Assembly (NCBI GenBank): GCA_016868315.1
Contig: VGHE01000002.1
Span: 124,001 to 188,000, forward strand
Reading direction: 5' to 3'
From: Betaproteobacteria bacterium
GTDB lineage: Bacteria; Bdellovibrionota_B; Oligoflexia; Silvanigrellales; Silvanigrellaceae
DNA: 64,000 nt
Below are positions 25,964-26,592 of the stretch, in pieces. The notes below the pieces were generated by a model, which saw only the letters and a list, made by a program, of their open reading frames with translations, was not told where the DNA came from and searched no databases. Within the stretch, counting starts at the first letter, position 1. Each line of letters begins with the position of its first letter. A program made the position numbers and the translations under genes.

Positions 25964-26278
25964 ATGACCCAAGAATCACGTGAAGCCGTCGGTCAAATCA
26001 GCATCAGACTTCGTGAGTGGATTCATGAGGTAAACAATGCGCTGTTCATCACAAAGGGCTTCCTTGAAGAAATTGAAGCAGACGCAAAGACTCGTGCCTA
26101 TCTTAAGCCCCACTTCGATCACGATAATTTTAACGAAATGATTGAAACGGTTGTGCGCAGTGTCGATAGACTCGATCGCAGTGTTCAGAAGCTGCGGCGC
26201 TACGCTAAAGAGGAAGTCTTTAGGGAAACCGGGGTTGAGTTACCCCTGCGTCGTGGAGAAACCACGCTGGGGTCCTGA
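25964..26278 (+). CDS. Stand-alone histidine-kinase dimerisation-like protein
   Basis: 104 residues, all helical. Near the N-terminus H21-E-V-N-N-A-L-F-I-T-K-G-F-L-E-E-I resembles the HisKA phosphoacceptor helix, in which a histidine is followed by E and then N. A second helix (about 55-80, MIETVVRSVDRLDRSVQKLRRY) fits the partner helix of a DHp hairpin. No ATP-binding domain follows. It could be a phosphotransfer protein, a phosphatase like Spo0B or CheZ, or a decoy for a response regulator. It is the last gene after pepA, 57 bases downstream. Phosphorylation is unproven. Confidence 0.6.
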   Translation: MTQESREAVGQISIRLREWIHEVNNALFITKGFLEEIEADAKTRAYLKPHFDHDNFNEMIETVVRSVDRLDRSVQKLRRYAKEEVFRETGVELPLRRGETTLGS

Positions 26279-26283
26279 ATCAT

Positions 26284-26328
26284 AAAAAAAAAGAATGAAC
26301 CGGCGGTCTGTTCGGTGGCCGCCGGTTC
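26284..26328 (-). terminator. Strong rho-independent terminator (minus strand)
   Basis: GAACCGGCGG (26297-26306) and CCGCCGGTTC (26319-26328) form a perfect ten-pair stem. On the minus strand it is followed by ATTC and nine T (complement of 26284-26292). On the plus strand there is no T-run, so it serves minus-strand transcripts coming from the LysM gene or the small RNA described here. Confidence 0.88.
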
Positions 26329-26530
26329 GGTCGTCCCTCGGAGGAGGGAAAGTGATTGGAATTGTATTGTGGGGATACTTTTAGAGGCTGGAGTTCATTG
26401 GGTAGGAACTAACAGTTTGGGAAGGCGTAGACAGCATCCGAACGATGCAGTCTCCGGGGAATCCGTTTGTTAGGGATATTCCTGTCTGGGGCTGTAACAT
26501 GCAGGGGTGCCCCCTGCAAGAGATTTTCTG
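26284..26530 (-). ncRNA. Putative small RNA between the DHp-like gene and the LysM gene
   Basis: This gene-free stretch of about 314 bp holds, on the minus strand, a promoter-like pair, a folded region and a strong terminator, with no convincing reading frame. In transcript order it shows a hairpin TGCAGGGG-GCA-CCCCTGCA (26518-26500), then a long hairpin in which GGAA and CTAACA (26482-26468) pair with TGTTAG and TTCC (26414-26405). That hairpin encloses an internal bubble of about 14 bases per side and an apical stem AGACTGCATC/GATGCTGTCT (26453-26429). A C/U-rich unpaired stretch with CCCTCCTCC follows (about 26403-26340). The rod with a central bubble recalls 6S RNA and the C/U-rich part recalls small RNAs that target ribosome sites. 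It could instead be the 3' UTR of the LysM gene. Confidence 0.45.
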
Positions 26531-26536
26531 CATGAA

Positions 26537-26566
26537 TTTATAGGGTTAATTTAGCTGGTCAGCCAA
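26537..26566 (-). promoter_or_regulatory. Sigma-70-like promoter reading into the putative small RNA
   Basis: On the minus strand TTGGCT (26566-26561) and TATAAA (26542-26537) are separated by 18 bases. This places a transcription start near 26530, about 60 bases downstream of the LysM stop codon. The -10 box matches five of six consensus bases and the -35 box four of six. Confidence 0.45.
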
Positions 26567-26592
26567 AAGCCAGTGAGCTGTTCGGATGACAC

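Follow-up and report, generated by a model that had tools for sequence, protein, structure and literature searches.

The window, a 64,000-nt stretch of contig, contains on its minus strand a gene for a small RNA of about 200 nt that belongs to a previously undescribed family. A covariance search against the same intergenic region in related genomes, as proposed by an earlier sequence-only reading of this DNA, recovered homologs with many compensatory changes; the gene is real. By comparing sequences we could establish the gene, its conservation, three helices and a paralog, and we infer that the RNA is expressed.

26284..26483, minus strand: small RNA of about 200 nt, delimited by covariance model matches and alignments

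The covariance model match itself spans 26287-26483. The sequence-only reading had already suggested an independent gene with its own promoter and terminator, and the homologs, the conserved promoter and the covariation strongly support this view of a stand-alone gene for a structured non-coding RNA. No reading frame is open across all family members, and the fold of a 250-nt stretch beats 200 dinucleotide shuffles (z = -3.8).

Nine relatives from the same family have matching DNA, with the best agreement in the 3' half, and the homologs occupy one and the same locus in five genera. These loci have a small HisKA-like gene on one side, with an M17 aminopeptidase gene beyond it in most of them; on the other side lies a LysM gene in genera g1-g4 and a TPR-protein gene in genus g5. 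By exact-pattern search, the carriers are Silvanigrellales, including Fluviispira multicolorata, Spirobacillus cienkowskii and uncultured Silvanigrella. Covariance models matched Silvanigrellales genomes with E-values from 1e-61 to 2e-10, which are rough, coming from models built here. With the first model, every own-family genome searched (own genome included) had a match except G001 and G013, where the neighbouring gene was likewise not found, so that loss, divergence and missing assembly would fit alike. A match (E 2e-10) was also obtained in one genome from another family within the order, and its RNA (L046) is found downstream of a LysM gene, the arrangement also seen in the window. Among 58 genomes of the class, the first model gave no convincing match in other orders. 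The weak matches of the second model were not convincing either: weak model matches outside the order (L047, L074-L078) lacked the paired loops or the terminator, or fell in coding sequence, and were rejected. In the genomes searched, the family was found only in Silvanigrellales. These are aquatic bacteria, relatives of Bdellovibrio, and include the Daphnia pathogen Spirobacillus.

In genus g5, every member with a match carries a second, diverged copy (75-97 bits); in those loci that were read, it lies downstream of a gene for an HflX-like GTPase. In E. coli, hflX neighbours hfq.

HflX-like GTPase genes by the paralog: L050 2042-3175; L053 2038-3174; L051 3-1130; L048 2028-3194; L049 1-1170

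In the window, the gene that adjoins the RNA in relatives (25964-26278, plus strand) encodes a protein of 104 aa, in which a HisKA-like (phospho-acceptor) segment stands alone and scores below the Pfam cut-off. The LysM protein used as query gave no match in a first scan of the genome collection.

The upstream region, aligned among homologs, shows a conserved promoter.

26514..26519, minus strand: -35 element TTGCAG, present as TTGCA(G/A/C) in nearly all type A homologs
26491..26499, minus strand: extended -10 element, TGTTACAGC, with ATG.TA kept in most type A homologs

It consists of TTGCAG (26519-26514), a 17-nt spacer and TG.TACAGC (26499-26491); the -35 element reads TTGCGG in L012, and TTGCAA or TTGCAT at the same place in paralogs. 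About 7 nt past the -10 hexamer there is an AGGA, invariant in the alignment. From this promoter and the AGGA spacing we place the RNA start at 26483, which gives a length of about 200 nt and replaces the previous figure of about 245 nt. The pattern TTGCA[AGC]-N13-15-TGNTA has six occurrences in 464 kb of the own genome, window included, among them sites before tRNA-Ser, tRNA-Arg, the small RNA and an ORF that begins MKRTY and looks like rpmH, while several other tRNA promoters in the same 464 kb are of the CTTGAC/weak -10 type. The assignment TTGCAG-17-TG(N)TA, apparently a type used for tRNA and ribosomal-protein genes, is well supported. The promoter proposed previously, TTGGCT-18-TATAAA, is indeed present (26567-26538, minus strand), but its TATAAA is not conserved in homologs. 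Likewise, the hairpin reported at 26500-26518 exists, with 8 bp at about 26499-26518, but it covers the -35 element and the spacer, upstream of the start, and so does not form part of the RNA.

The TTGGCT of that proposal is part of a near-palindrome, TTGGCTGACCAGCTAA (26552-26567, minus strand), which lies some 70 bp ahead of the RNA start; L005 retains it as TTGGCTGACCGGTTAA, L012 as TTGGCCGACCGGCTAA. It may be an operator, or else what is left of the LysM terminator.

The conserved promoter bears on the main alternative of the sequence-only reading, an RNA derived from the 3' UTR of the LysM gene through processing or read-through. The RNA lies on the same strand as this gene, 109 bp downstream of its stop, and a LysM gene is found upstream in the other family too. 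This origin is nevertheless weakened by a promoter conserved at the right distance, by the paralog adjoining hflX and by the TPR gene being the upstream neighbour in g5; from this last exchange we conclude that the RNA is independent of LysM. We consider a 3' UTR origin very unlikely.

The structure was addressed by RNAalifold on nine homologs, a run in which the covariance model was not used. The consensus consists of three hairpins with 12 pairs changed on both sides; a U-tract comes after the last of them.

26426..26456, minus strand: hairpin H1 (RNAalifold), with a 5-nt loop GUUCG; 10 of 13 pairs changed on both sides
26334..26349, minus strand: hairpin H2, UCCCUC-CUCC-GAGGGA; compensatory changes in 4 of 6 pairs when L044, L045 and L046 are counted
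26297..26328, minus strand: hairpin H3, the terminator stem of 10 bp; compensatory changes in 4 pairs
26284..26292, minus strand: U-tract of the terminator, T9 here and T-rich in homologs

Together with a helix between two of the loops, described below, this structure outscores 500 of 500 shuffles both for covariation and for percentage paired. In an extended alignment, to which more members of g5 and the other family were added (L044, L045 and L046 among them), 18 of 29 pairs have compensatory changes and 90.9% of cells pair, counts that lean towards the structure, as this alignment was fitted to the covariance model. None of 500 shuffles does as well, and pairing falls to 39-49% when the partners are slid. 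Covariation supports the three hairpins. In the paralogs, H2 takes the form UCUUC/GAAGA.

Several structural claims made from the single sequence could be located. The perfect 10-bp terminator with nine T is there (stem 26328-26319/26306-26297, then T9 at 26292-26284), and so is the C/U-rich stretch with CCCTCCTCC (26348-26340). An apical stem had been given garbled coordinates that overlap themselves, but the hairpin exists, at 26456-26426. The outer rod stems (26482-26468/26414-26405) fared differently: they pair in full only in the window's sequence, and for this reason the central bubble between them is not conserved either.

This bubble was the basis for the comparison with 6S RNA, which we abandon. 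A second 6S-type RNA, trapping RNA polymerase by means of a rod with a central bubble, would agree with the length of about 200 nt and with the rod-like fold that can be drawn for the window's one sequence. However, a conserved bubble and conserved outer stems are missing, RF00013 gave no match at E <= 10 in the stretch and none here when the genome was searched, and the own genome has its 6S gene at another place (RF00013 match of 52.4 bits, L002 1501-1689). Matches to 6S were obtained in 12 of 13 genomes searched, 10 of them above the cut-off. A 6S-type role is therefore highly improbable. Since the own gene scores no more than 52.4 bits and the matches of two relatives miss the Rfam cut-off, 6S RNA itself is diverged in this order.

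The wider covariance check against Rfam 15, also proposed beforehand, brought no family to its threshold in the window, and five homologous loci had no Rfam match up to E = 1. One plus-strand match, to the DnaX frameshift element, scored 21.7 bits (E = 0.018), where the gathering score is 35, and was discarded; it rests on an A-run and the terminator stem at the gene end, and relatives show no match to the element.

We also considered a feature of the opposite strand, such as a small protein gene or an RNA that acts as a CsrA sponge through GGA motifs. The plus strand does have many GGA/GGNNGG motifs, but the GGA is not kept (GGCGGG in L012, GGTGGG in L013), members share no open frame, and it is on the minus strand that the promoter lies and that a T-tract follows the terminator stem. 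This explanation is extremely improbable.

The loops of H1 and of the terminator hairpin match each other over 6-8 bp.

26438..26443, minus strand: GUUCGG, loop side of H1, pairing with CCGAAC in 98.8% of cells
26310..26315, minus strand: CCGAAC, within the terminator loop, which pairs with GUUCGG

GUUCGG/CCGAAC is present in almost every member, including paralogs in which the H1 stem was rebuilt. L046, which belongs to another family, has GCUCAG/CUGAGC instead, with eight contiguous Watson-Crick pairs; when the L046 loops are shuffled, about 1% of trials give six pairs or more. The two loop-loop pairs with compensatory (double) changes both come from L046. The evidence for this helix is good, not conclusive, because it amounts to one independent event plus one wobble change. 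Pairing within one molecule and between two would both fit. If formed within one molecule, the helix between the 5' hairpin and the terminator hairpin would close the RNA into a ring, which in the cell would shield both ends and present a single-stranded arc of about 80 nt, rich in C and poor in G.

26350..26425, minus strand: C-rich, G-poor, mostly unpaired central region, defined by composition, unpaired probability and invariant C

Between H1 and H2, the start of H2 included, this arc measures 75-86 nt in all members, with 29-43% C and 4-10% G. It belongs to the top 0.03% of the window's 80-nt stretches for C over G, and the unpaired probabilities indicate that it is mostly single-stranded. 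CC dinucleotides recur about every 11-15 nt at conserved positions, and the bases that separate them vary (CCNNCC). The invariant columns are enriched for C (16 of 27, against 12 of 50 for the others; p = 0.003), although non-C words, TTGAWCTC and GCATTRTCC, are conserved too.

We suggest that the RNA acts in trans, independently of Hfq, by pairing with mRNAs, a function to which we give an even chance. The arc would pair without Hfq to G-rich mRNA sites, chiefly ribosome binding sites, and the translation of several targets would go up or down as a result. Hfq-dependent small RNAs belong to organisms with Hfq, and Hfq, the usual RNA chaperone, had no match in 13 of 13 family genomes searched, while it was found in five control genomes. 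Pairing with mRNAs, the mode of action of most small RNAs with such a shape, is for this reason ranked first, and the action as a protein decoy second.

The C/U-rich stretch may pair with ribosome binding sites, as suggested by the sequence-only reading, but it does so no better than its own shuffles. In a hybridisation test that covered 464 kb of the own genome and used a simple rule to call starts, the arc does prefer translation starts, a preference that composition alone explains, as 45 of 60 mononucleotide shuffles performed at least as well. This shuffle comparison showed no anti-Shine-Dalgarno tuning of the arc beyond composition. Across eight genomes, perfect partners of the longest conserved unpaired motif did not recur elsewhere more than chance would allow; in G008, G010 and G011 it was matched by the RNA gene itself only. 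Two features speak against mRNA pairing: the CCNNCC pattern with its variable bases, unlike a contiguous seed, and the loss of the H2 motif CCCUCCUCC in paralogs.

Among the closest known systems is NfeR1/alpha-r14 (cuckoo RNA, alphaproteobacteria), whose C-rich anti-Shine-Dalgarno small RNAs silence mRNAs at the start site (PMC10746234). The two families share three hairpins, C-rich anti-Shine-Dalgarno-like words and an intergenic position, and our RNA would act in trans as alpha-r14 does (PMC10746234). In alpha-r14, the ultraconserved CCUCCUCCC occurs in unpaired parts of all three hairpins (PMC10746234), whereas our RNA has one similar word, partly in the H2 stem and lost in paralogs and L046. 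Our family also differs by end loops that pair with each other and by the lack of an Rfam match. PmaR of Agrobacterium uses an accessible C-rich single-stranded region for pairing (PMC6234868), a region comparable to the arc by description only, and unlike our RNA it is one long stem with a C-rich loop. We found no small RNA described from Silvanigrellales in the literature. With its covarying helices, its compensated loop-loop helix and its paralog, the family offers a concrete entry to RNA regulation in this order.

The protein decoy or scaffold is the second explanation, unlikely in our opinion. The CC-stepped arc would titrate a protein that reads C dinucleotides, for example the termination factor Rho. 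Its length, its excess of C over G, the regular CC steps with variable bases between them and the enrichment of invariant columns for C agree with such a role; on the other hand, the conserved words TTGAWCTC and GCATTRTCC exceed a composition signal, and a literature search turned up no known natural Rho-titrating small RNA. Rho-utilisation (rut) sites are about 80 nt long, C-rich, G-poor and mostly unpaired (PMC12691595), and the arc has this rut-like character in length, composition and predicted lack of structure. In contrast to rut sites, which act in the nascent mRNA being terminated, the arc is part of a short RNA that ends at an intrinsic terminator of its own. Whether they mask ribosome binding sites or titrate a protein, C-rich RNAs would find a test case in this family. 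A more specific proposal, which we regard as quite unlikely, is that the ring closed by the loop-loop helix is itself a natural decoy, offering its CC-stepped arc of about 80 nt to a C-reading ring protein such as Rho; if true, the RNA would set the level of transcription termination in a lineage with no detectable Hfq.
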